From a virus: 21,636 nt of DNA. The DNA is taken from the IMG/VR virus record IMGVR_UViG_3300033571_021436, positions 1 through 21,636 of that record; one strand, 5' to 3'. Of the stretch, positions 1,922 through 18,496 are shown piece after piece. Positions within the stretch are counted from its first letter, which is position 1, and each line of letters opens with the position of its first letter. The notes under the pieces were generated by a model, which ran no database searches, was not told the DNA's origin, and worked only from the letters and a program-made list of their open reading frames with translations. Position numbers and translations under genes: made by a program.

Positions 1922-2536
1922 TTATTTTGCGCAAGAAAGAACCAATTTTGACTCTGCGTCTCTTCTCTCTAGTAAACCATCTAAACCTCTGCCCTTCCAT
2001 ATTCGCTTCATCTTCTGAAATTCTAAAGCAATACTTCTATAATCTTTTTTTGGAACTAGATCTCTAATTTCACGCATTTCTCTTCTACTATCGCCAGACA
2101 TACTACTTCCACGGTTAAAAACCAACGAAACGATTGCTCCGTACGCATTATCACAAAGCTTATCTAAATCGGGGAACGCTCTTTCTGCTAACTTAGAAAA
2201 CTTTGGCCAAGTCAATGTTTCGAATATTTCTTTCGCTTGCTCCCATGAAACAACTATGCCAGCTTGCCTTAGTGTTCTTGTATACTCTTTTCCTGATTGG
2301 CCTGTTTTGCCCGATGCGCCTTGTATTAATTTTATCTCGTCATTTTTTAAAAAATAGAATATTCTTGCGAGTTCTTCTTTTGTATAGTATGCACAATCAA
2401 TACCAATTCCAATTGTAGGTCCAGAAGCACCACCGGGCCAAGTGAATCTAGAAAGGTATTTATCATAATATGGTTTCCCGCCTCCTACTTCATAATCTAA
2501 TAATAGTTTTAATGTTTCTGGTGATGGTTTTTTCAT
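1922..2536 (-). CDS. Endolysin, pesticin/T4-lysozyme-like muramidase
   Basis: The 204-residue protein matches the lysozyme-like fold of the pesticin C-terminal family. E16 in LLDYEVGGG, D25 in PYYDK and T41 in SGPTIGIGID form a Glu-Asp-Thr set; the nine-residue Glu-Asp spacing equals that of T4 lysozyme (E11, D20). Later motifs VSLVFNRGSSM and a C-terminal RRDAE also fit phage lysozymes. It would cut the glycan strands of peptidoglycan. No signal peptide is present, so it needs a holin to reach the wall. The start overlaps the end of the upstream membrane protein gene by four bases, and no clear Shine-Dalgarno precedes it, suggesting coupled translation. With the two genes upstream it forms a complete lysis cassette. 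Confidence 0.86.
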   Translation of the reverse strand: MKKPSPETLKLLLDYEVGGGKPYYDKYLSRFTWPGGASGPTIGIGIDCAYYTKEELARIFYFLKNDEIKLIQGASGKTGQSGKEYTRTLRQAGIVVSWEQAKEIFETLTWPKFSKLAERAFPDLDKLCDNAYGAIVSLVFNRGSSMSGDSRREMREIRDLVPKKDYRSIALEFQKMKRIWKGRGLDGLLERRDAESKLVLSCAK

Positions 2537-2958
2537 TCTATTGTATAGTCGTCTTCTTTGACGTTATGGGTAAGATTTTCAGTTATCTCTTCTTTTATTG
2601 TTTCTACATTACCAGTCATCTCTGCATTAGAATCACTGCGGTATTTTAGATCCACAACAGCCTGTACGCCAAGATATGACGCAATAATTACGGCAAATAT
2701 CTCTATTGTTTTCGAAAACAATGTTACAAAAGCTGGTATATGCTCTGGCATTTCTATGGCTAACAATATTGCCACGCTAGAATAATATAATGCAGCTAGC
2801 ATTAAAACAGAAGTAAATATTATAAAAAACTTCTTTGAAGATAAATGGTTAGTTTTTTCCATTTCTCTTTTTAGATAATCTGGAGTATTTGGCGGAACCT
2901 TTCCGTTTTGCAAAAAGGCGCATGCTGTTTTAGCTATATTTGCGATATTGTGCCACAT
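2533..2958 (-). CDS. Small membrane protein, putative holin
   Basis: The 141-residue protein has a polar N-terminus, two hydrophobic segments (about 43-66 and 74-103) joined by a short turn, and a charged C-terminal tail of about 38 residues. Size and topology fit a two-segment holin, the pore former that times lysis by letting the endolysin through the inner membrane. Holins share little sequence, so the call rests on topology and position: the gene overlaps the endolysin gene by four bases and begins seven bases after the u-spanin gene ends. The tail is longer than in many class II holins, so another lysis-associated or unrelated membrane protein is possible. No own promoter motif is seen; it is probably expressed from the promoter before the u-spanin gene. 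Confidence 0.6.
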   Translation of the reverse strand: MWHNIANIAKTACAFLQNGKVPPNTPDYLKREMEKTNHLSSKKFFIIFTSVLMLAALYYSSVAILLAIEMPEHIPAFVTLFSKTIEIFAVIIASYLGVQAVVDLKYRSDSNAEMTGNVETIKEEITENLTHNVKEDDYTIE

Positions 2959-2964
2959 ATGCTT

Positions 2965-3546
2965 TTAAAATAACTTAAATCCGCTATTCATCCTAAGATA
3001 GATATAACCACCAATCAGCGCTAAAAGCGCAACAATAATGATGTTTCTCCAGAGAATAGCCAAATCTTTTTCAACAAGTTTCTTTTGCATTATGTTAAGA
3101 TCTTTTACCATCTTATTTGTCATCTCTTGTTGCTTTGTGCGTTCTGCATCAAATTCTTGTTTGGCTTTAGCTAAAACTTCATTATCCTTTTTAAGTTTTG
3201 CTGCAATCTCTTTATCTTCTAAGAGTTTGTCATAATCAGATGAATTGACCACAACTACCTTATCGCTTTTATATTGTTCGGGGACGATTACTACTCTTTG
3301 CTTTGAATCATTTACAGAGATAGGCTTTTGGTATATAGCATTGATTTGAATTCTCTTTTTAGGAGGATTGATTAACTTTGTGGTCTCATTTATATAAGAC
3401 TCTGCCAAATCAATTCTGGCTAAATCAATTGAATCTTTTGTAGCATAAACGGACTGAGAAACTGCTTCAGTCTGTTTTTCGGTATAAACAGTACATCCGC
3501 TTAATAAAAAACATGACAATAAAATTATTGCTGAATAAATTCTCAT
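2965..3546 (-). CDS. Lipoprotein with C-terminal membrane anchor, probable unimolecular spanin
   Basis: The 193-residue protein begins with a lipoprotein signal peptide ending in lipobox LLSGC, making C18 the lipidated residue. A long soluble part follows, with a charged coiled coil at about 103-160, and a single membrane helix lies near the C-terminus (about 163-184, WRNIIIVALLALIGG). Attachment to the outer membrane by lipid and to the inner membrane by a helix is the layout of u-spanins such as T1 gp11, which disrupt the outer membrane in the last step of lysis. This implies a Gram-negative host. At 193 residues it is longer than T1 gp11. The gene sits directly before holin and endolysin genes. 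An exact GTGTAATTA motif ends only 6 bases before the ATG. A structural lipoprotein is a less likely alternative. Confidence 0.76.
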   Translation of the reverse strand: MRIYSAIILLSCFLLSGCTVYTEKQTEAVSQSVYATKDSIDLARIDLAESYINETTKLINPPKKRIQINAIYQKPISVNDSKQRVVIVPEQYKSDKVVVVNSSDYDKLLEDKEIAAKLKKDNEVLAKAKQEFDAERTKQQEMTNKMVKDLNIMQKKLVEKDLAILWRNIIIVALLALIGGYIYLRMNSGFKLF

Positions 3547-3552
3547 ATATTA

Positions 3553-3561
3553 TAATTACAC
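3553..3561 (-). promoter_or_regulatory. Late promoter motif of the lysis cassette
   Basis: The minus strand reads GTGTAATTA, an exact copy of the motif, followed by TAATAT and then the ATG of the u-spanin gene. With so short a gap the transcript would start at or next to the ATG if the motif acts as a -10 element. Surrounding sequence is nearly all A/T. Confidence 0.6.
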
Positions 3562-5863: not shown

Positions 5864-7915
5864 TTATTCCTCGTCTATTTGGCTATGCATTAAGACAATA
5901 GCGGTTTTTATATCTACGCCATGTTCCTGAGCAATATCCATTACAGTTGTTAGATTTTCTGTATTTGTTACTGGTTCATTAATATACTTAGCAATGCTTT
6001 CAAGCCACTGCTCGGGCTTTTCATTCATAGCTATTGTCTCCGCTACTTCATTAACTATTTCTTTCTGTTGCTTTATTAATTTTTTCTTTTTAAATTTCTC
6101 CTTGAGATAATTTTCAATACTACCAGATAATAAATCGAATCTTGTTAGGTTTGCAGCAATTTGTGTTGCGCTAACCTTTTTCCCAATTTTTCCAATATTG
6201 TTAACATTTTTGGATACTCCAGATCCGGGTGGCCTTCCAGTCATTTGCTTGATTTCTTTATTTTTTTGCGCACTAGTACCAGACTGCTTATTATCTTGCT
6301 GTTTACTAGTAGTACTGTCTTGTGGCGCGCCAATATTTGGGTTATTTAAAACTGGCTGATATAAAGACTCCTTATGATACTGTATTAACTTTCTTTGGCT
6401 CTCAAGACTTTCTTCGGGAAGAGGTAGTCTACCAGTTTGTAGTGCAGTCAGCCCCTCCTCTGGTGTCAGTATACCAATCTCCATTAATCTAGAGTAAATT
6501 CTAGCTGAATTTGGGTCGTCTCTAAAGTCTGCATCTTTAAATCTCGGCGTTGGTAGGGACTTAAATCCGAGTTCTGCACCTATAGATTTTATTTCGGGAA
6601 GTAAAAATTCGTTTAAAAATGTCTCTCTTGCGTGTTTTAATCTTGCCAAAAACATTTCAACTTTTGTTGACGAGTTTGCATACTTTTCTTCTCCAATTAG
6701 TATATTGTTAAGCCCATTTTTAATATCTTCATTTACGATTTGATATTTTTTGGGGTCAAGAATCTTTTCCACCTCCGGAATGACAAATTTTGCCTGTGTT
6801 GTATAGTCGGTAATAAGAATGCGCCCAACACTTTCATTTTGAAATATTTCCTTAAGATTATTTATTTGCTTTGCTGTTGGCATACCAATCTCATCATTAC
6901 CCATAGTAACAAGCAATACTGCTTGCATGATTGTTCTGCTAATAGCCATATCTATGTTTTTCAATTCCTGCTTCCAGTTAATATCCTGCAAAACAGGGAA
7001 TCCCATTGGAACACCGAATGGTTCATATGGTTGCTTTTTATAAAAAACTGCTTTAACTTTATCGGGATCAAGATAAAATACTAAATAAGTCTGCGATTGC
7101 GCCGTCTTTACCGTTTCTTGTAACTGTCCAAATTCCTGTATTTTCTTGGCCAACTCCTTCTCCTCATCTGATTTTGGGTTGGTTAATACTTGCATTTCAA
7201 AATCGTTAAGTACTTTTACATATCTAGGAGATATAAATGATGCCGATCCAATTGACTGAATATCTGCGGGGTTAAGAATAATGTACTTAATTGGAACTTC
7301 TTTCTGTGTTCCAGCTGCTGTTAGCACATCAGTAATAGTCATCATCTCCTCTTTATTAAATACCGCGTTTAGTTTATACAAGAAAACATTACCGCTACGA
7401 TAGTATTCACGATAAAAATCATCTTGCAAACGCCATAGGTTTACTCTATTTGACCAAGCCTCAAAAAACTTTCTAGACTGTGCGTTACCTCCGGTAAAAT
7501 ATATTGGCGAGCAACTAAACTCGGTCATCATATCAATAGTATTACGAAATACAGAAAAATTGTAATATGCTTTTTGACAAAGAATAATAGCATCTCGAAT
7601 AGAGACATTTGATGTATACTTGCCTCTAGAAGCGCTATATATAAATGGAACCACACCGCCCTCAATATTAGAGTACCTTTCTGACCTAGTCATCGTACTC
7701 GCACGATTTCTTCTTAGCGGAGAATTCTGATTTACTCCATACCCAGAATCCTCTGTATCATAAGATGAATAAGCGGAAATTTCTATCTGTGAATTACTTT
7801 TATATGACCCCTCAATTAGAGAAGGCTCAACAAAAGTGGTATTTTTCTTCTTTTTTACCTCTGTTGTCGATGCCTTAGCTTGTAAATTTTCCGTGCTTTT
7901 ACCTTTCTTAGTCAT
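5864..7915 (-). CDS. Portal protein
   Basis: The 683-residue protein follows the large terminase gene by 36 bases and has portal-like features. A low-complexity Lys/Ser/Thr-rich N-terminus (1-85) comes before the core. The core has SIRDAIILCQKAYYNF (105-120), FRNTIDMMTEF and then FYREYYRSGNVFLY (167-180), a pattern of portal wing regions. A long helical stem region and a charged Gln/Lys-rich tail (540-683) follow. The portal forms the ring at one capsid vertex through which the terminase pumps DNA. The protein is longer than T4 gp20, because of the basic N-terminus and the extended C-terminus. An exact late motif GTGTAATTA lies 16 bases before its ATG, so portal starts its own unit, shared with the fibre-like gene. 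Identification rests on context plus weak core motifs. Confidence 0.83.
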   Translation of the reverse strand: MTKKGKSTENLQAKASTTEVKKKKNTTFVEPSLIEGSYKSNSQIEISAYSSYDTEDSGYGVNQNSPLRRNRASTMTRSERYSNIEGGVVPFIYSASRGKYTSNVSIRDAIILCQKAYYNFSVFRNTIDMMTEFSCSPIYFTGGNAQSRKFFEAWSNRVNLWRLQDDFYREYYRSGNVFLYKLNAVFNKEEMMTITDVLTAAGTQKEVPIKYIILNPADIQSIGSASFISPRYVKVLNDFEMQVLTNPKSDEEKELAKKIQEFGQLQETVKTAQSQTYLVFYLDPDKVKAVFYKKQPYEPFGVPMGFPVLQDINWKQELKNIDMAISRTIMQAVLLVTMGNDEIGMPTAKQINNLKEIFQNESVGRILITDYTTQAKFVIPEVEKILDPKKYQIVNEDIKNGLNNILIGEEKYANSSTKVEMFLARLKHARETFLNEFLLPEIKSIGAELGFKSLPTPRFKDADFRDDPNSARIYSRLMEIGILTPEEGLTALQTGRLPLPEESLESQRKLIQYHKESLYQPVLNNPNIGAPQDSTTSKQQDNKQSGTSAQKNKEIKQMTGRPPGSGVSKNVNNIGKIGKKVSATQIAANLTRFDLLSGSIENYLKEKFKKKKLIKQQKEIVNEVAETIAMNEKPEQWLESIAKYINEPVTNTENLTTVMDIAQEHGVDIKTAIVLMHSQIDEE

Positions 7916-7931
7916 AAAGTATTATAAAACT

Positions 7932-7940
7932 TAATTACAC
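7932..7940 (-). promoter_or_regulatory. Late promoter motif before the portal gene
   Basis: The minus strand reads GTGTAATTA, exact, 16 bases before the portal ATG. It lies in the 36-base gap between the terminase stop and the portal start, indicating that portal can be transcribed separately from the terminase operon. Confidence 0.58.
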
Positions 7941-7951
7941 TTAAATCTGTT

Positions 7952-9853
7952 TTAAATCAACACCGCAACAAATTCTGTGTTTTTTTTCTTGAAATTATCT
8001 GGGGCCATTATATCAAAATAGCATTTTACAGCCCAATTTCCAAGCATTAAAGTTGTATAGTTATCTTTTCTAGCTCGGTTTGCACTAACTGACTTTCTTA
8101 AGTGAGATGGCAAATCAAAACTTTGAGTTCCTCTTGATGTACTTGTTACCTCTACGTTTGCGCACTGATCTTTGGTATCCTTAATAATAAAATCTTGCTG
8201 CTCGATAAAATCACGTACGGTCAATTTTTTTGTTTCATATTCATTATCCGCCCTATCACCTATACCCTTAGGGTAAACATAATCCATAGGTAGATTCATA
8301 GTGAACATATTTTCAAGAATATCCGGATGATTGCTTGCCCTAGAAGCAAACCATATTTTCTTATGGTCGATACATGTCTGTAAATAGGAATTTGCTCTGC
8401 CCAAAAATGCCGATGTAAAATATTGCTTAATACATATTGTTCCTAAATCTGTATTATATTGCTTGGCACACTCTTTTAACATGTTCATGTAGTCTTCATT
8501 TTCTTTATCAGAATCAAAATCAATAAACCCAATTTTCTTGTTCATACCCTTAAAGAACTCTGAATTATTAACTGCATCTATAAATGTATCGGCTCCAGCA
8601 TGGTCAATAATCATTAATGCAATATTGAAATTTTTGAATATATAATATAAATATTTAATATGGTCTTGAAGAGAAGCTCCAGCAACTTGATAGCCATGAA
8701 CTAGTACGCCCTGTTTTTTCTCTTCGTCTAGTTCTATAACGCTCATTGCAAAATAGTCAGCACTACGAGAAGAAGAGAAGTTGGGGTCAATTGATAGTAT
8801 ATATTTTTTATCACTTTCTCCAACGATTTTAGTAGTTGGGTATTCTCCATCTGGAATGGTACAAAGGTGCATTTTTTTCGGTGAAAAATAACTATCTCCA
8901 CCATCAATAAATCTAGCAGCATATTCGCGTAAGAACGAGTTATGTGAACTTCCGCCATTTTTTGCCAACTGAATTGCAGCTTGGTCTACCATGTGATTAG
9001 GCAGGGCCTCGTAGCTCAACTGCGATATGAAATAAGTTCCCGGTAGCTCGCCTTCTTTTGACTCCTGATCTTCTGGGTGTTCGATAAGATGCGCCCATTG
9101 TTGATGCACTTGAAATAAATGCTCAAACGTGTAACTAGCAGAACTCAACGCTAGCATCTGAGATGTGTTTTCAAAAATTTGACGATCATCGGGGTGCAAC
9201 ATTCCCTTTTTAATTAACTCCTCTTCCAGTCTTCTTGTTCGGATACGATCACTAACATCTCTTGGGGAACTCAAGAACGGCATTAATACGTTATCAATAA
9301 TATCTGGAGGTAATAACAAGAACTCGTCCAAAATAAGTACGTTAGCACGAATACCACGAATTTTTTCTCCAGTTAGTGGGATAGCAGTAATACTACCACC
9401 ATTAACCAGCCACTCATACTGGTCATTGCGCTTCATCTTGTCTCCAAAGCACTGCCTAAATAATGATGCTTCAGGAGAAGCCAAGAATTTTTCAATTTCA
9501 TTAAACATTCTTCGGGCAGTACGAAAGTTAATAGATGCTATCAATATCTTTGTTCCCGGTTCAAATATACATTTAAGTATGCAGTAAACAGCAGCACAGA
9601 AACTTTTCGCACAACCTCTTCCCCAGACTAACATGCAATAATTTCTATTAAAAAACGACTTTATTGTTAATTCTTGGTAAGATTCTAATGTGACACCCAA
9701 TCCCAATTCTGTAGTAAATCCGAGATTATTTCTCAAGAATTTTGCTAATGTAATTCTGGCCTCTGAATCTGAAAGCTCGCCTTTTAGCAATTGTAATTCC
9801 TTGTTAACATCAGTAATTATTTTACTATTTTGTGTGCCAGTTATTAAAGCCAT
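7952..9853 (-). CDS. terL: Terminase large subunit
   Basis: The 633-residue protein is the DNA-packaging motor. The ATPase half has a Walker A-type LVWGRGCAKSF (75-85), a Walker B LILDE (173-177) and a coupling motif LSSAS (236-240). The nuclease half starts near 350 with YILSIDPNFSSSRSADYFA (first acidic residue D356), followed by a second strand LMIIDHAGAD (413-422) and a late acidic segment GIGDRADNEYETKK. It cuts concatemeric DNA and pumps it through the portal. Length is typical for the family. A strong Shine-Dalgarno (AGGAGG, 9861-9866) lies seven bases before the ATG, inside the upstream nuclease gene, whose end overlaps this start by ten bases. It is the last gene of the operon that begins at 13182. 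Confidence 0.94.
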   Translation of the reverse strand: MALITGTQNSKIITDVNKELQLLKGELSDSEARITLAKFLRNNLGFTTELGLGVTLESYQELTIKSFFNRNYCMLVWGRGCAKSFCAAVYCILKCIFEPGTKILIASINFRTARRMFNEIEKFLASPEASLFRQCFGDKMKRNDQYEWLVNGGSITAIPLTGEKIRGIRANVLILDEFLLLPPDIIDNVLMPFLSSPRDVSDRIRTRRLEEELIKKGMLHPDDRQIFENTSQMLALSSASYTFEHLFQVHQQWAHLIEHPEDQESKEGELPGTYFISQLSYEALPNHMVDQAAIQLAKNGGSSHNSFLREYAARFIDGGDSYFSPKKMHLCTIPDGEYPTTKIVGESDKKYILSIDPNFSSSRSADYFAMSVIELDEEKKQGVLVHGYQVAGASLQDHIKYLYYIFKNFNIALMIIDHAGADTFIDAVNNSEFFKGMNKKIGFIDFDSDKENEDYMNMLKECAKQYNTDLGTICIKQYFTSAFLGRANSYLQTCIDHKKIWFASRASNHPDILENMFTMNLPMDYVYPKGIGDRADNEYETKKLTVRDFIEQQDFIIKDTKDQCANVEVTSTSRGTQSFDLPSHLRKSVSANRARKDNYTTLMLGNWAVKCYFDIMAPDNFKKKNTEFVAVLI

Positions 9854-10788
9854 ACAAATCCCTCCTGTTCAAACCAGTATTCTAAATCTATAGTTCTTGC
9901 TAGTTCTCCCATTTCGAGTATAAACAGCGTTTTTTTGGATGCCTCTGCTTTACCATTGGCAAATACAAATTGTATATTATCAAATTCTCTACATAAAGAC
10001 CTCATATGGTGCATAATATACTCTCCGGAACACGCGCCAAATTTTCTTTTCGCATACAGGGCAGTATTTAGCGCGCATTCAGTAACAACTACTATATAAA
10101 TACCCATTTCCTTTGCCCTAATTATTTCTCTCTTGAACCTGTCAAAACCCGTACTTAAAGTTGAGTAGAAATCGCCTAAACTTTTTCTTTCTACCACTAC
10201 CTTGCTTTCGATAGATTTGGCATAGTCACCACATTCCAATTTCGAGGAAATTATGTTAAGCCCCTTAAATTTCAATGGTTGCTGCTCTCTAGTATCGACA
10301 ACAATATCCTTGTTAGTATAATTTATAAATTCATTTTGAGTATGTTTTATCTCATAATTAAAATCACATTTTAATTTTATTGATTCACATATTTTACCGA
10401 AGTCTTCCTGACAGCAGTAAACAAAAGTATCTACTTTAGGTAAGCAAAATATTGTTTTTAATTGAGATTGTGTGGGCGATTTTTCTAGGCCTTTAATTAT
10501 GCAATATGACTTCAATTTATTCTTTAAGTATTCGCATGCAGTATTTCTATCTACCGATTGCAGCCATAATTTCATATTTCTTTTATCTATAAAATCTGCT
10601 AGATAATACTGTTCTAGGGCTTTATATTTTATTGGTGCCTGAGTATGCAGGTCTTTTTTTGCAAATTTTTCCTCGAAATATTTCTGAGCGTTTTGTTGGT
10701 GTGATTTAATATGACTCAGTATTTGCGCGGCAGAGTTAAATTGCACGTCGCAAATTTTACATTTTAGATATTGATCGTAATCTTTCAT
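9844..10788 (-). CDS. ERCC4 (XPF)-family nuclease with N-terminal C2H2 zinc finger
   Basis: The 314-residue protein opens with a C2H2 finger (C10, C13, H26, H30). Its C-terminal half is an ERCC4/XPF nuclease domain: VVDTREQQPLKF (163-174), ECGDYA (185-190) and VVVERKSLGDF (197-207) supply the acidic catalytic residues D165, E168 and E200 with R201-K202. RFKREI follows at 217-222. This family cuts branched or flap DNA near junctions. The gene overlaps the terminase large subunit gene by ten bases and abuts the upstream gene, so the product may clear branches or junctions before packaging, as endonuclease VII does in T4; this role is inferred. Residues 30-160 match nothing I recognise. Confidence 0.85.
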   Translation of the reverse strand: MKDYDQYLKCKICDVQFNSAAQILSHIKSHQQNAQKYFEEKFAKKDLHTQAPIKYKALEQYYLADFIDKRNMKLWLQSVDRNTACEYLKNKLKSYCIIKGLEKSPTQSQLKTIFCLPKVDTFVYCCQEDFGKICESIKLKCDFNYEIKHTQNEFINYTNKDIVVDTREQQPLKFKGLNIISSKLECGDYAKSIESKVVVERKSLGDFYSTLSTGFDRFKREIIRAKEMGIYIVVVTECALNTALYAKRKFGACSGEYIMHHMRSLCREFDNIQFVFANGKAEASKKTLFILEMGELARTIDLEYWFEQEGFVWL

Positions 10789-11927
10789 TATCCATTAACC
10801 ATTTCATCTACATTGATACCACGAATAACTGCCTTCAATTCATCCATTGATGACAACCTCTTCGCCTCTTCATGTAGATTTTTCTTTTGTGCCTCTGCCA
10901 GTGCCAATATACCCTTTCTCTTTTCCTCATCTTTCCAAGCCTGAACTAAGTTTAGAATACTAGCATTCTCTTCTTGACGAAGTTTTATTCTTTGCGCGCG
11001 ATCATCGACAAGTGATTTATACAGTTTTTGCTGCCTTGTCCTGCACTGATTATACTCGGTCTGTAAATTACTAATAGCCTCGTTAAGCTGCATTTTAATA
11101 TTTCGCCCCTCACCGTCACTAGTGCTATTACGTAACATATCACGTAAATCCTCAACTTGCTGTAAGATTGTTGCCGCAGTAACTACTTCTGTACATAGTA
11201 CAATGAATTGATCTAACTCCTCCTGACTGAGGTCTGGCTTATCGAAAGTATACCTAATAAATGAATCCTCAAAAAGCTGTCTATCGTTATTGGTCTTATA
11301 TGTATTAATTTGATAACAAAAACTAAAAGTATTCAAATACCTTTGTAACATATCAACCATTTTCTGTTGTGATGCCTTGAGAGTGTCCGCTGACCAGCCG
11401 ATGTTAAGATACTTATTTATTCTAAATACAGTTTGATCCGTCCTTCTTGGTGGAAAATATGCGCCTGAAGTAGAATCGGTACCCCTTTCAGATGGGACAT
11501 AAGTCGTCATATCCAATGCATCTTTTTGGTATTCTGGGTCTTGCTTCTGTAGTTCTTGTATATAACTATTTACTTCTCGGCACTCAAGTGTTACATGAGT
11601 TAACTTATCATTAACGAAAATCGTTTTGGCAATATCTACATAATTTTGTTCTTTATAATGATTTTTTATGAACTCTTTTTGCTCTTCTGAAAGAGTAATT
11701 CTTTCCCTTTGTGTAACGCTCTTGTTTTTATATTGAATATTATTATCCAATAGAAACTGTTTTACTAGCCTACCCTCTTTGCTTCTGCTATCAATTTTTT
11801 CGTCATTATAGGCATAAGAAGTAATTTGTGTTAATGTAGCATCTGGATTTAATTTTAAGAAGTCACGAATCCTATCTTTCTGTTCGTCAAAAAGAATCAC
11901 ATCCGTGCTTTCTGGTGTATCACTCAT
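10788..11927 (-). CDS. Unrecognised helical protein, candidate small terminase subunit
   Basis: The 379-residue protein is mostly helical. Two similar helix-turn-helix-like units sit in the N-terminus (about 13-57 and 79-126): each opens 'DEQK/EEQK-x-x-I/F', carries a helical motif, and ends at a 'V-x-x-F/Y-I/L' segment. A middle portion (about 175-255) and a charged coiled coil (about 255-360, rich in Q, R, K, E) follow. DNA-binding N-terminus, oligomerising middle and position two genes before terL would fit a small terminase, which recognises packaging sites, but this protein is long for one and I see no family motif. A transcription-linked role next to the sigma-like gene is another option. 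The ATG has a strong Shine-Dalgarno (AAGGAGGT, 11931-11938), and the start overlaps the sigma gene end by four bases. Confidence 0.35.
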   Translation of the reverse strand: MSDTPESTDVILFDEQKDRIRDFLKLNPDATLTQITSYAYNDEKIDSRSKEGRLVKQFLLDNNIQYKNKSVTQRERITLSEEQKEFIKNHYKEQNYVDIAKTIFVNDKLTHVTLECREVNSYIQELQKQDPEYQKDALDMTTYVPSERGTDSTSGAYFPPRRTDQTVFRINKYLNIGWSADTLKASQQKMVDMLQRYLNTFSFCYQINTYKTNNDRQLFEDSFIRYTFDKPDLSQEELDQFIVLCTEVVTAATILQQVEDLRDMLRNSTSDGEGRNIKMQLNEAISNLQTEYNQCRTRQQKLYKSLVDDRAQRIKLRQEENASILNLVQAWKDEEKRKGILALAEAQKKNLHEEAKRLSSMDELKAVIRGINVDEMVNG

Positions 11928-12622
11928 ACTACCTCCTTAGCTAATATTCGGGCCTTCTGTAAAATTTTTGACTTGATTTTACTAATTTGTCTATATGCTG
12001 GTCGGCCATCCTTATAGCTTAACTTGTAACCCATTTTTTTTGCAATATCTGCTTCCTCAAGGTTCTGCAGAAACATGTAGTCATAAACCTTCCATTCTAT
12101 AACGGAAAGATTCTTTTTCATAATATCGTTAAAAGATGGGATTATATTCTCTATATCAACATCTATTTCTCTAGAATGAAGAACAGACTCTAGGGTAGTC
12201 TCTGGGTTTTGGGCATTCGGACTATTTATACTTACAGGAAACTTAATATCATAAGCTGACTTCTTAGTTTTTTCCCATTTTGCATATGTAGTACAGGAAT
12301 TATTCTGTGTTCCATATAAGGAGCATCCATACTCACCAGTATTGAATTTGCACTTTAAACATGGTCTAGAAAAATTTGAATAGTGATTACGAAGCATGTT
12401 TGTAATCTGGTGATTAATTACTTGATTTAGCCAAGGTCTTAATGGGCGGATATTATCCCATTTATCCCACTTTTTATATATATGTATACGTAATCTTTGT
12501 GATACGTCCTGAAAATCCATCCAAGAAATAGCGGTTAGGTGCCAGCGCGATTTACGCTTATTAATTTCTTCGTCTATAATATCAATAGACTGTTCAAATG
12601 TGGGTCTAGATTGAGTTGTCAC
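11924..12622 (-). CDS. Sigma-70-like RNA polymerase sigma factor with inserted four-Cys motif
   Basis: Of 232 residues, 33-82 look like sigma region 2 (WMDFQDVSQRLRIHIYKKWD, then RPWLNQVINHQITNMLRNHY). The end, 172-230, looks like region 4, with a helix-turn-helix (EEADIAKKMGY, then RQISKIKSKILQKARIL). Between them lies a likely zinc-binding insert with C88, C91, C100 and C110 (RPCLKCKF, GEYGCSLYG, NSCTTYAKWE). The protein would direct host RNA polymerase to phage promoters, most likely the GTGTAATTA-type late promoters in this window. It is read from an operon that itself carries that motif at 13210-13218, suggesting positive feedback. Start is GTG at 12620-12622 with AGGAG 11 bases upstream. 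Similarity to ECF and T4 gp55-type factors is by pattern only. Confidence 0.72.
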   Translation of the reverse strand: MTTQSRPTFEQSIDIIDEEINKRKSRWHLTAISWMDFQDVSQRLRIHIYKKWDKWDNIRPLRPWLNQVINHQITNMLRNHYSNFSRPCLKCKFNTGEYGCSLYGTQNNSCTTYAKWEKTKKSAYDIKFPVSINSPNAQNPETTLESVLHSREIDVDIENIIPSFNDIMKKNLSVIEWKVYDYMFLQNLEEADIAKKMGYKLSYKDGRPAYRQISKIKSKILQKARILAKEVV

Positions 12623-12627
12623 GCAAT

Positions 12628-13182
12628 TTATTGCTCCTGTTGTCCCCTATTGCTGCCAGCCTCTCTTCTAAACTCCTCTAAAATAGAGTCAGCATTTCTT
12701 GTTGGAATATCTAGAGACTGGCTATTTAGCTCTTCTGGACTAACTGGCTTATAATTACTGGCATAAGATTGCGTCAAAATGTTCTCAAAGGATTCGGATG
12801 TATTTCTGTAATGTTGAACGGTAAATTTCGGCTTTACCTTGGTCAGGTTGCTGATATCAACGTATTCCGAATCTTCATCGTCATAATCGTCGTCATATCC
12901 ATCCTCTTCATTCTGCTGTGGCGCAGTACCACGATCATCAACTATACGAAAGGAGGCCCTAGCGGGATTTGGATATTTTTTGGGAGGGGCCTTGGTAACA
13001 GGAACAAACTCACGATTATTATCGGAATACTTGTTTTTTAACTTTTCTAAAGCCTGATCACCAGCAGACTTATCCTTTTCTTTAGTAACTAACGAAAATT
13101 CGTTGCCGCAATTAGAGCAAAATTTTGGTAGTGATAAGTTATATATTGTTGGCTTACCACATATTGTGCAAAAATGTTTCAT
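12628..13182 (-). CDS. Zinc-ribbon, acidic low-complexity protein of unknown function
   Basis: The 184-residue protein begins with a zinc ribbon: C5, C8, C22 and C25 (CTICGKP, then FCSNCGNEF). A basic proline-rich stretch, an acidic run at about 92-107 (EEDGYDDDYDDEDSEY) and a polar C-terminal tail follow. It looks like a protein that binds nucleic acid or RNA polymerase and has mostly unfolded regions. It is the first gene of the operon and lies directly before the sigma-like gene, so a co-factor for late transcription is a reasonable guess, not shown by any motif. The ATG is 27 bases after an exact late motif. Confidence 0.6.
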   Translation of the reverse strand: MKHFCTICGKPTIYNLSLPKFCSNCGNEFSLVTKEKDKSAGDQALEKLKNKYSDNNREFVPVTKAPPKKYPNPARASFRIVDDRGTAPQQNEEDGYDDDYDDEDSEYVDISNLTKVKPKFTVQHYRNTSESFENILTQSYASNYKPVSPEELNSQSLDIPTRNADSILEEFRREAGSNRGQQEQ

Positions 13183-13209
13183 AATTTTTTTGATACACTT
13201 ATTATTAGT

Positions 13210-13218
13210 TAATTACAC
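13210..13218 (-). promoter_or_regulatory. Late promoter motif before the sigma/terminase operon
   Basis: The minus strand reads GTGTAATTA, exact, 27 bases before the ATG at 13182. A second partial motif, GTGTATC, lies nearer at 13193-13199. It forms a divergent pair with the plus-strand copy at 13265-13273. Confidence 0.58.
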
Positions 13219-13240
13219 AGAAAATTCTAATTTCTCTTTA

Positions 13241-13260
13241 GGGTTATATTATATATACCC
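13241..13260. promoter_or_regulatory. Imperfect palindrome between divergent late promoters
   Basis: Twenty bases with arms GGGT and ACCC enclosing a TATATTATATAT core (one extra T in the left arm). It sits between the two divergent GTGTAATTA motifs, 22 bp from one and 4 bp from the other. It could be an operator or simply an A/T-rich unwinding segment. Confidence 0.3.
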
Positions 13261-13264
13261 AAGA

Positions 13265-13273
13265 GTGTAATTA
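13265..13273 (+). promoter_or_regulatory. Late promoter motif before the metallopeptidase gene
   Basis: The plus strand reads GTGTAATTA, exact, 8 bases before the ATG at 13282. It is the only exact copy I found on this strand, and it points to the only rightward gene inside the late block. Confidence 0.6.
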
Positions 13274-13281
13274 TCTGTAAC

Positions 13282-13881
13282 ATGCGATCCATTAAAAATA
13301 CGAAGCTTTATAGCGTTATAAATAAACAGCTTAAAGCTAATAATGGTAAAATAATATTATTTAAAGGAGAGTATTGCGGCGGTAGCGATAGGTGTCATGG
13401 TATGTTTGCTTTTAATCATAAAGACGAGCCTGTAATTAAGGTCGCAGTTGGCAATAAAAGCAATGAGCAGTGGTTTGGTATATTAATTCATGAATACTGC
13501 CACTTTCTTCAGTGGGTAGAGGGTAGTAAAATATGGAAGCAGTTCGAGGAATGTAATTTTAATATTGATGAAATAATCAAATGCCCCAAGAAATATAAGA
13601 AGGAGATACTCCTATTAATAAGACTAGAGGCAGACTGTGAAAGAAGGACTGTTAAATTAATTAAGGAATATGACCTGTTTTGTCACAAACAGTACGCAAG
13701 GGAGGCCAATGCAGTATTATATAAATATGCTTTCCTATATACAGAAGGATTCTGGCCGAAAGGCAATCCAGAACTAGAAGATTCTTGGGCAGTATGTCCA
13801 GATAAAATACATCGTTCCTATCTGGACTATCTTGAAGTTCCTGAAGAATTATATGATATATATATTAATTCACGACCTTAA
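13282..13881 (+). CDS. Putative zinc metallopeptidase (HExxH)
   Basis: The 199-residue protein has the zinc-binding motif H70-E71-Y-C-H74 in GILIHEYCHFLQWVEGS, and a later acidic helix RLEADCERR (114-122) that could give the third ligand, E116. This is the pattern of compact gluzincin-like peptidases. It also carries C32 and C38 in a YCGGSDRCHG segment near the N-terminus. No signal peptide or membrane helix is visible, so it probably acts in the infected cell. The gene runs against the flow of its neighbours and has its own exact late motif 8 bases before the ATG. Its end overlaps the end of the phoH gene by 17 bases in convergent orientation. Substrate unknown; a virion-protein or host-protein target are both possible. 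Confidence 0.75.
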   Translation: MRSIKNTKLYSVINKQLKANNGKIILFKGEYCGGSDRCHGMFAFNHKDEPVIKVAVGNKSNEQWFGILIHEYCHFLQWVEGSKIWKQFEECNFNIDEIIKCPKKYKKEILLLIRLEADCERRTVKLIKEYDLFCHKQYAREANAVLYKYAFLYTEGFWPKGNPELEDSWAVCPDKIHRSYLDYLEVPEELYDIYINSRP

Positions 13882-14626
13882 TTCTCATATTTTCGAAGGT
13901 CTCAATAATATAAGATAATATCTCTGATCTGACAATGTCTTCTTTTGTGAATTCAAAAGTATGAATACCATGTTCTTTTGCTACTTCAGTATTGAACGAG
14001 TTATACACACGGTTAAATCCGCTCTGTTTAATATCTGACTGCTGTTCATCACCTATAATAAATAGGTTGGAAAAATTCGCCATACGGCTCATTACTAATA
14101 AGAAGTCTTCAACCCTGCAGTTTTGAGCCTCATCCATTATAAAAGAAGCGTTTGATATATTTAATCCACGAAGAAATCCTAATGGCAAACCCTTTATTCT
14201 ATCGTCATTCATTAACGCCTTAACTTGTGGGTCTGGCAGTAACTCATGCAGTTTATCTACTAGGGGTTGTAGATATGGCGACATCTTCTCGTCCGTAGTA
14301 CCCTTAATATACCCTATTCCATGTATGGAACTTTCGACAGGAACACGGCTATAATATATTTCAGCAGATTTTTTCTCGCTTATTTTCTTCAGCGCACAGT
14401 ATACCGCTAGCAATGTTTTTGCAGTTCCGGCAACACCCTTTACTATCATTACTTTAGTATTCTTATCCAAGGCTACCTTAAAAAATTCTTTCTGCTTATC
14501 TGTCCAAGGAAGCTCTCTTAATGTTAATTGTATAGTACTTTTTGTACGTTTTTTATCAACATAAGGAGAAGTATCTTTTGGTTGTTCAGCGTTTTGCTTG
14601 ACTGGAGTTTTTTTCTTGTGACTCAT
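13865..14626 (-). CDS. phoH: PhoH-like ATPase
   Basis: The 253-residue protein is a PhoH-family P-loop ATPase: Walker A GVAGTAKT (64-71), a typical PhoH segment YYSRVPVESSIHGIGYIKGT (91-110), Walker B FIMDEAQN (162-169) and GDEQQSD (192-198). It lacks any N-terminal KH or PIN domain; the first 30 residues are basic and polar. PhoH proteins are common in aquatic phages and probably act on RNA or RNA-protein complexes, but their role in infection is unsettled. Its 3' end overlaps the convergent metallopeptidase gene by 17 bases. Upstream is a 250-base intergenic space shared with Hsp20; a GTGTAAATA motif lies about 120 bases before the ATG. Confidence 0.95.
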   Translation of the reverse strand: MSHKKKTPVKQNAEQPKDTSPYVDKKRTKSTIQLTLRELPWTDKQKEFFKVALDKNTKVMIVKGVAGTAKTLLAVYCALKKISEKKSAEIYYSRVPVESSIHGIGYIKGTTDEKMSPYLQPLVDKLHELLPDPQVKALMNDDRIKGLPLGFLRGLNISNASFIMDEAQNCRVEDFLLVMSRMANFSNLFIIGDEQQSDIKQSGFNRVYNSFNTEVAKEHGIHTFEFTKEDIVRSEILSYIIETFENMRIKVVN

Positions 14627-14878: not shown

Positions 14879-15379
14879 ATGAAAACACTAATGAATATAT
14901 CACTAGTCCCTAAAAATAATTATGATAATTCTTATCTAACGGCACCAGATCCGTATAGTACGGGTACGTCATACCAAGCTATTCCATATACAATTGGCAA
15001 GACATATCTCGACCCTTTCTGGCCGATTGATGAATGGACAAAGAAATGGCCTGACCTATTTAGTCAATTTGATGCTATTTCTAGTCCGCAGTTCAGCCTA
15101 GAAAAACTCAACCCTTGGAAGGAAGAAGATGACAAGTTTCTTTATGAGACAGAACTACCTAGGTTTAAGGCTAATAGTCTCGATGTAACTACAGAAAATG
15201 GTATTCTGCATATTAAGGCCGAGCAGGACAGTCTTAAGTACTACAATAGTATTAATATCCCAAAGAATGCAGATGTAGAAACAGTTGATGCTAGACTAGA
15301 TCACGGTGTTTTATATATCTCTATGTCAAAGTTGGCGTCGGCAAAAAGTAAAAAAATAAAGGTACAGACGGTTAAGTAA
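14879..15379 (+). CDS. hsp20: Small heat-shock protein (Hsp20/alpha-crystallin family)
   Basis: The 166-residue protein ends in an alpha-crystallin domain (about 78-165): FLYETELPRFKANSLDVTTE, then GILHIKAEQ, YYNSINIPKNADVETVDARL and the hallmark HGVLYISM (142-149), with a Lys-rich tail KKIKVQTVK. The N-terminal 77 residues are Tyr/Pro/Trp-rich and unlike the usual bacterial form. Hsp20 proteins hold unfolding proteins as ATP-independent chaperones; related genes are widespread in aquatic T4-like phages, where they are thought to help virion or host protein folding. The gene runs divergently from phoH and has its own sigma-70-type promoter. Confidence 0.92.
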   Translation: MKTLMNISLVPKNNYDNSYLTAPDPYSTGTSYQAIPYTIGKTYLDPFWPIDEWTKKWPDLFSQFDAISSPQFSLEKLNPWKEEDDKFLYETELPRFKANSLDVTTENGILHIKAEQDSLKYYNSINIPKNADVETVDARLDHGVLYISMSKLASAKSKKIKVQTVK

Positions 15380-17524: not shown

Positions 17525-18472
17525 CTATAAAACTGCTTGTGCGACTATATCATAGCCGTTGTCTATTATTTCTTGTGCTATTTTTTGATCGCATGTCGCA
17601 GTAATAGAGAAGTCTTGACCGTTTCCGCCAATCATTAGTCCATTTAGAGATGGCGCGGTTAATTCGGGCGAAGATAAATGTAAATTTAAATTAGATGTTG
17701 CGGAAGTAGTCCAAGGTATACTATTTGCCGCCGCACCTAAGCCGTCTGCGGAAGTGTTCCAATTTTGTAATGTTGACCACAGGCCATCGCCGCCAGCGTT
17801 AGTATAGTATAGAGCAGTTGGTAAAATTTCAATAGAAACCCATACGCCCGCGCTCCATATCTGTCCCTGCCAACTTCCACTATACGGAGTGCCATTCTCA
17901 CTAATTGTTATATTTGGATAGTCGATAGATCCACCGACATTTGTGAATCCATTAATATTGTATTCCCCGCCAAATATAGATGTCCCAAATCCATTTTCTT
18001 CATTTGTAAAGTTTGACCCAAGAAATACTCCACCATAGATTTTTGAATCATTAAAAAAGTTGTTACCATAGAATGTTCCACCATATATATATCCATAACT
18101 ATCAAAGCTCTGGTTATTATTACGATTTGATGACACGCCATAGAAATTTCCACCGACAATCTGGCCCTGATTGGTAAATGTTCCATACCAGTTACCCCCA
18201 TCAATAGTGCAGTAATCTCTCATATGTACATCTAAATAACAACTTCCAGTAGTTGGAGAGATGGATACACTTGCGGGAGTTGCCCAATACACCGTACCAC
18301 CAAAAGAATCGCCGTAACGCAAATCGTAATCAAAATAGCCGTCAACCCAAGGAATACCCGTTGGCGTATCTCCAGATCCATCTGGCTCGGTATTCCAGTT
18401 TAGTACGTTCGACCACTCGCTAGGATAGAAAAATTCACCACCTGCTGCATTTGTATAATATAGATTGGCCAT
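17525..18472 (-). CDS. Repeat-rich structural protein with duplicated terminal module
   Basis: The 315-residue protein holds two copies of one module: residues 4-42 (LYYTNAAGG, NVLNWNTEPDG, then GIPW) and 221-254 (LYYTNAGGDG, TLQNWNTSADG, then SIPW). Between them is a run of Gly/Tyr/Phe-rich short repeats (VGGNFYG, YGGTFYGNNF, YGGVFLGSNF, FGGEY) that would form a beta-helix-like stack. No signal peptide is seen. I infer a fibre or other virion protein. A late motif ends 15 bases before the ATG. Confidence 0.6.
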   Translation of the reverse strand: MANLYYTNAAGGEFFYPSEWSNVLNWNTEPDGSGDTPTGIPWVDGYFDYDLRYGDSFGGTVYWATPASVSISPTTGSCYLDVHMRDYCTIDGGNWYGTFTNQGQIVGGNFYGVSSNRNNNQSFDSYGYIYGGTFYGNNFFNDSKIYGGVFLGSNFTNEENGFGTSIFGGEYNINGFTNVGGSIDYPNITISENGTPYSGSWQGQIWSAGVWVSIEILPTALYYTNAGGDGLWSTLQNWNTSADGLGAAANSIPWTTSATSNLNLHLSSPELTAPSLNGLMIGGNGQDFSITATCDQKIAQEIIDNGYDIVAQAVL

Positions 18473-18487
18473 TGTATTCTTATAATT

Positions 18488-18496
18488 TAATTACAC
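18488..18496 (-). promoter_or_regulatory. Late promoter motif before the repeat-rich structural gene
   Basis: The minus strand reads GTGTAATTA, exact, 15 bases before the ATG at 18472. Nothing like a -35 box is conserved upstream of this or the other copies. Confidence 0.58.

Follow-up and report, generated by a model that had tools for sequence, protein, structure and literature searches.

Sigma Factors of Phages with Single-Element Promoters

For T4, a late promoter consisting of a −10 element only is read by the sigma-like protein gp55, with gp33 as a separate small partner; according to a review of T4, a fused late sigma factor has not been found in nature (PMC2988020). For phiEco32, the middle and late promoters of gp36 were described as consisting of one element only, tAATGTAtA; transcription starts 6–8 bp downstream of it, and a −35 element is absent (PMC8948821). 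The promoters of gp47 from phage 7-11 are bipartite, with the composition GTAAtg-16-aCTA (PMC8948821). Here, a phage sigma factor with a four-cysteine insert is presented, designated Zn-sigma, which is encoded by the virus record IMGVR_UViG_3300033571_021436. This record was analyzed over its whole length of 21,636 nt and is referred to as the window.

Among the described systems, phiEco32 gp36 and T4 gp55 with gp33 come closest in function. Like Zn-sigma, gp36 is a sigma factor encoded by a phage and is comparable in size, and its promoters are very similar to the element GTGTAAW identified in the genomes related to the window. However, the gp36 sequence contains no four-cysteine insert, and gp36 has been described as having no homology to region 4, while Zn-sigma does contain a sigma4 fold. 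A profile comparison of the two proteins revealed no similarity (hhalign E 0.47). The same was the case for T4 gp55 and Zn-sigma (hhalign E 0.17, probability 0.3%), and phrog_234 was not among the matches of Zn-sigma in a search which does find gp55. T4 divides the sigma2 and sigma4 roles between gp55 and gp33, while Zn-sigma has both domains in one chain. A sliding clamp of the gp45 type, searched for as PF02916, was found at most weakly in one of 14 contigs. The original prediction had compared Zn-sigma and its upstream neighbor to the gp55/gp33 pair in logic and not in sequence. The parallel is indeed one of logic only, and Zn-sigma differs from gp55 by including a sigma-4-like domain. Compared by description, phage 7-11 gp47 resembles what is proposed for Zn-sigma, since it is a late sigma factor which is encoded by the phage and has a promoter class to itself (PMC8948821).

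The Operon Containing Zn-Sigma

Zn-sigma is encoded at 11924–12622 on the minus strand and comprises 232 amino acids. Its gene begins with a GTG codon, which is found at the same position in several close relatives, and is the second gene of its operon. The first gene, at 12628–13182 (minus strand), codes for a zinc-ribbon protein of 184 amino acids. Downstream of Zn-sigma follow, all on the minus strand, the gene for a 379-amino-acid protein (10788–11927), which by its position and an HTH-like stretch only is a possible small terminase, a gene for a nuclease with C2H2 zinc finger and ERCC4 domain matches (9844–10788), and the gene for the large subunit of the terminase (7952–9853). In relatives, the latter gene keeps its position about 2 kb downstream of Zn-sigma. 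It is followed by a portal-like gene (5864–7915), which is preceded by a late motif of its own at 7932–7940 (minus strand). Few genes could be named by Pfam or PHROGs because the proteins are too divergent, and the labels late and early as used here rest partly on unannotated genes.

Zn-Sigma as a Member of the Sigma Factor Family

Zn-sigma had been proposed to consist of a region 2-like end and a region 4-like end, and both were recovered by profile searches and structure prediction. Residues 33–80 (12383–12526, minus strand) match Pfam Sigma70_r2 with an E-value of 2.5e-5, above the gathering cut-off, as do all 32 aligned relatives; PHROG sigma family 1740 was matched by 27 of these 32. The C-terminal domain, residues 157–231 (11930–12154, minus strand), is clear by its fold and weak by its sequence, with a region 4 match in 2 of the 32 relatives and an atypical recognition helix. 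The structure of Zn-sigma was modeled with AlphaFold2 from 75 relatives, resulting in a mean pLDDT of 81.1 and a pTM of 0.41, so that the orientation of the domains is uncertain. This model superseded an earlier and weaker one obtained from 32 sequences (pLDDT 70.5). Residues 152–232 of the model superimpose on sigma-H with a Z-score of 9.8 and an rmsd of 2.3 Å over 71 residues, and among the matches listed in both comparisons to the PDB nearly all are sigma factors.

In the profile alignment to CnrH, a PDB profile match for region 2, D39 and Q42 of Zn-sigma correspond to the D-V-x-Q motif of ECF region 2.2, and both residues are invariant among the distinct relatives. The equivalent positions in sigma factors are in contact with core RNA polymerase; the invariance of D39 and Q42 is suggestive of core binding by Zn-sigma. 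The arrangement of sigma2 followed by sigma4, with regions 1 and 3 being absent, is the one found in ECF sigma factors. Together, this supports the assignment of Zn-sigma as a phage sigma factor with an ECF-like layout. With the ECF (group IV) factors CnrH, SigE, SigL, and sigma-H, Zn-sigma shares the two domains and the region 2 sequence, but it differs from them by the putative zinc-ribbon insert between the domains, and its promoter would be one without a −35 element if the assignment presented below is right. A recognizable anti-sigma factor is not found in the neighborhood of Zn-sigma.

The Four-Cysteine Insert

Between the two domains, residues 85–119 (12266–12370, minus strand) form an insert in which C88-X2-C91 is followed by C100 and C110, a spacing similar to that of zinc ribbons. 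In the AlphaFold2 model, the cysteines follow the long helix with which region 2.4 ends (residues 61–84) and precede the linker, and the insert is predicted to form small strands with a pLDDT of about 73–88. The four cysteines pointed out in the original prediction were found without exception in all 124 distinct relatives, the most divergent of which have an identity of 33%. For a protein of a phage, cysteines kept this strictly speak in favor of a structural metal site, and the insert is therefore regarded as a putative zinc ribbon. The accompanying statement that ordinary sigma factors have no such cysteines was too broad, since ECF52 sigma factors have been reported to contain a zinc-finger domain (PMC5826349). 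ECF52 and other cysteine-bearing ECF factors resemble Zn-sigma in the presence of a cysteine or zinc module on an ECF sigma factor; they are set apart by being described as cellular proteins with other added domains (PMC5826349, PMC9023288).

The Upstream Zinc-Ribbon Protein

The protein encoded directly upstream of Zn-sigma contains the N-terminal cysteines C5, C8, C22, and C25, which are kept in 115 of 115 aligned homologues. They are followed by a variable middle part, which is acidic in the window, and by a conserved C-terminal tail with the motif F..EAGS.R. A role of this protein as a partner of Zn-sigma had been suggested from its position in the window. The relatives of Zn-sigma fall into eight sequence clusters, and in all eight the zinc-ribbon gene is located directly upstream of the gene for Zn-sigma. 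This conserved neighborhood strengthens the proposal and is the strongest support for it; the zinc-ribbon protein is a candidate partner, and probably a dedicated co-factor, of Zn-sigma.

Distribution of Zn-Sigma

At least 593 relatives of Zn-sigma were identified in IMG/VR, while a tblastn search among 50,697 phage records gave no significant match. The relatives of the large terminase subunit among cultured phages are distant only, mostly with an identity of about 22–24%. Zn-sigma marks a large, uncultivated phage group, which is very common in the environment and for which the collection searched contains no cultured phage as a close relative. Four relatives were found in GTDB contigs, three of which are titled as MAGs, and these are likely to be binned viral contigs. 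The contigs of the relatives L082, L083, and L085 had been assigned to genome bins of Flavobacteriales and Halobacteriovorax and are probably viral.

The Late Motif and Other Promoter Classes

The late motif GTGTAATTA is present in five copies in the window compared to 0.35 expected, and none of 100 shuffles reached five. Each copy precedes a start codon of its own strand by 6–27 nt. In the related contigs, an ATG of an open reading frame was found within 40 nt downstream for 133 of 192 occurrences of GTGTAAT and for 101 of 214 occurrences of GTGTAAA, while the value for most control words was 2–15%. No −35 signal was detected near GTGTAAW, with columns −50 to −8 carrying at most 0.14 bit in 80 nonredundant instances. 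The distance from the end of GTGTAAW to the ATG is most often 7–9 nt, with a mode of 7 nt. Since this matches the −10 element of TTGACA-type promoters in the same genomes, for which the mode is 6 nt, GTGTAAW is a −10-type element, and it is a real single-element promoter. A free EM motif search was abandoned after drifting to A/T-rich signals, and a search for exact copies of GTGTAATTA in MAG assemblies was uninformative because of the background.

In the whole group, host-type and late-class promoters both end mostly 5–10 nt before the ATG, an example being 13265–13282 of the window. This suggests that the mRNAs of both classes are largely leaderless, and probably they are leaderless or nearly so. 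In four of five genomes, no more than a single gene has promoters of both classes. GTGTAAT is kept in clusters 1, 4, and 6, in which Zn-sigma is only 40–45% identical; in cluster 3, likewise a clade of 40–45% identity, both GTGTATA and GTGTAAT are found. In cluster 5 (G025, G026, G046, G048), GTGTAAT is nearly absent from the −10 position and ATAAATAA is enriched instead. The latter is reminiscent of the T4 late motif.

A third class, in addition to TTGACA/TATAAT and GTGTAAW, has the composition TTRGAW-N16-18-TATAAT, typically with N17, and was recognized as a conserved further promoter upstream of the operon of the zinc-ribbon protein and Zn-sigma. It occurs 18 times in the window's clade compared to 2.25 in shuffles, and nine times in cluster 5 compared to 0.7, and is absent from two other clades. 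This middle class could instead represent weak host promoters. In the window, the operon is preceded by TTAGAA as the −35-like element of the putative middle promoter (13225–13230, minus strand) and, 18 nt downstream, by AATAAT as the −10-like element (13201–13206, minus strand). The promoter is imperfect, and therefore the first expression of the operon is not assured by its sequence alone.

The operon was said to carry the late motif as well, and a copy of GTGTAATTA, conserved in the clade, indeed heads it at 13210–13218 on the minus strand. The conclusion drawn from this, a self-reinforcing late transcription, needs to be restricted. Of the 107 operon heads showing the ribbon pattern, a GTGTAA-type motif is present in 48, while 55 have a TATAAT-like element only. 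With about half of the heads being without GTGTAA, feedback is a trait of clades and not a general one; it is possible in the clade of the window.

A Second Sigma Factor

All 11 contigs of more than 100 kb which were fetched through Zn-sigma also encode a second sigma factor. It has a length of about 190–215 amino acids, is present at at least 345 loci in IMG/VR (for example, L097:16294-16923 and L107:18746-19318), and contains an ordinary-looking HTH; a similarity to Zn-sigma is not detectable. In the window's clade, its gene has host-type TTGACA/TATAAT promoters, and GTGTAAW was not found near it in the contigs examined. Contigs with the second sigma factor and the terminase region all carry Zn-sigma, with the exception of two which end at that region (G028, G032). 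Contigs with the second sigma factor and no Zn-sigma were therefore rejected as evidence, since those with a terminase end right beside it and the others do not include the terminase region. Some relatives contain a third sigma factor (G024:159442-159654, designated L212; G015:23256-23441; G027:45297-45506), and the one of G024 resembles a full RpoD-type factor.

Proposed Assignment of Sigma Factors to Promoters

Three promoter classes and three sigma factors are thus to be matched, and the simplest assignment would be host sigma to TTGACA, the second sigma factor to TTRGAW, and Zn-sigma to GTGTAAW. In such a cascade, host sigma70 would transcribe the early genes from TTGACA/TATAAT promoters, among them the gene for the second sigma factor. 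The latter would probably read the bipartite TTRGAW-N17-TATAAT promoters of some clades, one of which heads the Zn-sigma operon. Zn-sigma, as the third factor, would most likely bind the core RNA polymerase of the host and direct it to late promoters consisting of the one −10-like element GTGTAAW, with the RNA starting at the start codon or within a few nucleotides of it. The cotranscribed zinc-ribbon neighbor would probably act as its co-factor, and the late genes and, in the window's clade, also the operon of Zn-sigma itself would be transcribed in this way. The absence of a −35 element is in keeping with the atypical region 4 of Zn-sigma, while the HTH of the second sigma factor has the ordinary appearance. 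Zn-sigma is a plausible reader of the late motif, and we slightly favor the cascade as outlined.

The assignment of Zn-sigma is tentative, though, because of the second sigma factor in the near-complete relatives. This factor, as a putative early product, might itself read GTGTAAW, with Zn-sigma as a late product serving very late genes, the shut-off of host sigma, or a coupling of transcription to packaging. We consider this doubtful. Its presence in every near-complete relative, its host-type promoters in the window's clade, as expected of a late-gene activator, and the late motif of the Zn-sigma operon would fit; yet a factor with a normal region 4 would then use promoters without a −35 element, and the TTRGAW class would be left unexplained. 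Moreover, the operon heads with a TATAAT-type element and no GTGTAA imply that Zn-sigma is not simply a late product. The change of the motif in cluster 5 does not discriminate between the two factors, since both are altered at DNA-proximal positions there.

Two further explanations leave GTGTAAW to the host or remove Zn-sigma from transcription. Host sigma70, alone or aided by a phage activator, might read GTGTAAW as a −10 variant, since the motif is located where the −10 element is found and TGTAAT differs from TATAAT by a single change; Zn-sigma would then act at another step. This is improbable, however, given that a G is constant at the usual position of the −11 A, that a late-motif and a TTGACA promoter are rarely found at one gene, and that GTGTAAW, without a −35 element, is kept across clades in which Zn-sigma is only 40–45% identical. 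An exaptation of Zn-sigma for DNA packaging, in which Zn-sigma and the partners from its operon would bind either DNA, at a pac site, or the terminase, with no role in directing transcription, would account for the tight, conserved linkage to the large terminase gene, the C2H2/ERCC4 nuclease in the same operon, and the atypical region 4. We regard it as the least probable of these explanations, in light of the invariant core-contact positions D39 and Q42 in region 2, the existence of a single-element promoter class in need of a reader, and the possible small terminase encoded separately as the next gene of the operon.

Within the cascade in which Zn-sigma reads GTGTAAW, a more detailed version can be formulated for the whole of this large uncultivated group. 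Here, Zn-sigma would be a natural one-chain late sigma factor, corresponding to the fused gp55-gp33 which is missing from nature according to the T4 review. The ribbon would replace region 3 and recognize GTG, the first half of GTGTAAW; a zinc-ribbon co-activator would be obligatory, three sigma factors would form the cascade, and the transcripts would be mostly leaderless. In this full combination the version is rather unlikely. The cascade in its simpler form would already add a new layout to the known sigma factors, with a zinc ribbon where the region-3 segment is otherwise located and with a conserved zinc-ribbon protein as the counterpart, and this pair would act as the late switch in phages which are very common in the environment. 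The predictions are defined by the −10-only promoter, the protein pair, and the rival sigma factor in the same genomes.

Genes under the Late Motif and in Its Neighborhood

Other late motifs of the window are located before the gene at 17525–18472 (motif at 18488–18496, minus strand) and before a lysis-like cassette at 1922–3546 (motif at 3553–3561, minus strand), which codes for a lysozyme-like protein, a membrane protein, and a lipoprotein. On the plus strand, a late motif at 13265–13273 precedes a divergent gene (13282–13881) for a small protein with an HEYCH (HExxH) motif, for which no family match was obtained. Beside the late operon, genes of host type were identified which code for a PhoH-like (13865–14626) and an Hsp20-like protein (14879–15379). 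The divergent pair of late motifs spans 13210–13273, with starts 55 nt apart, and the same spacing was found in several relatives (G001, G002, and G004).
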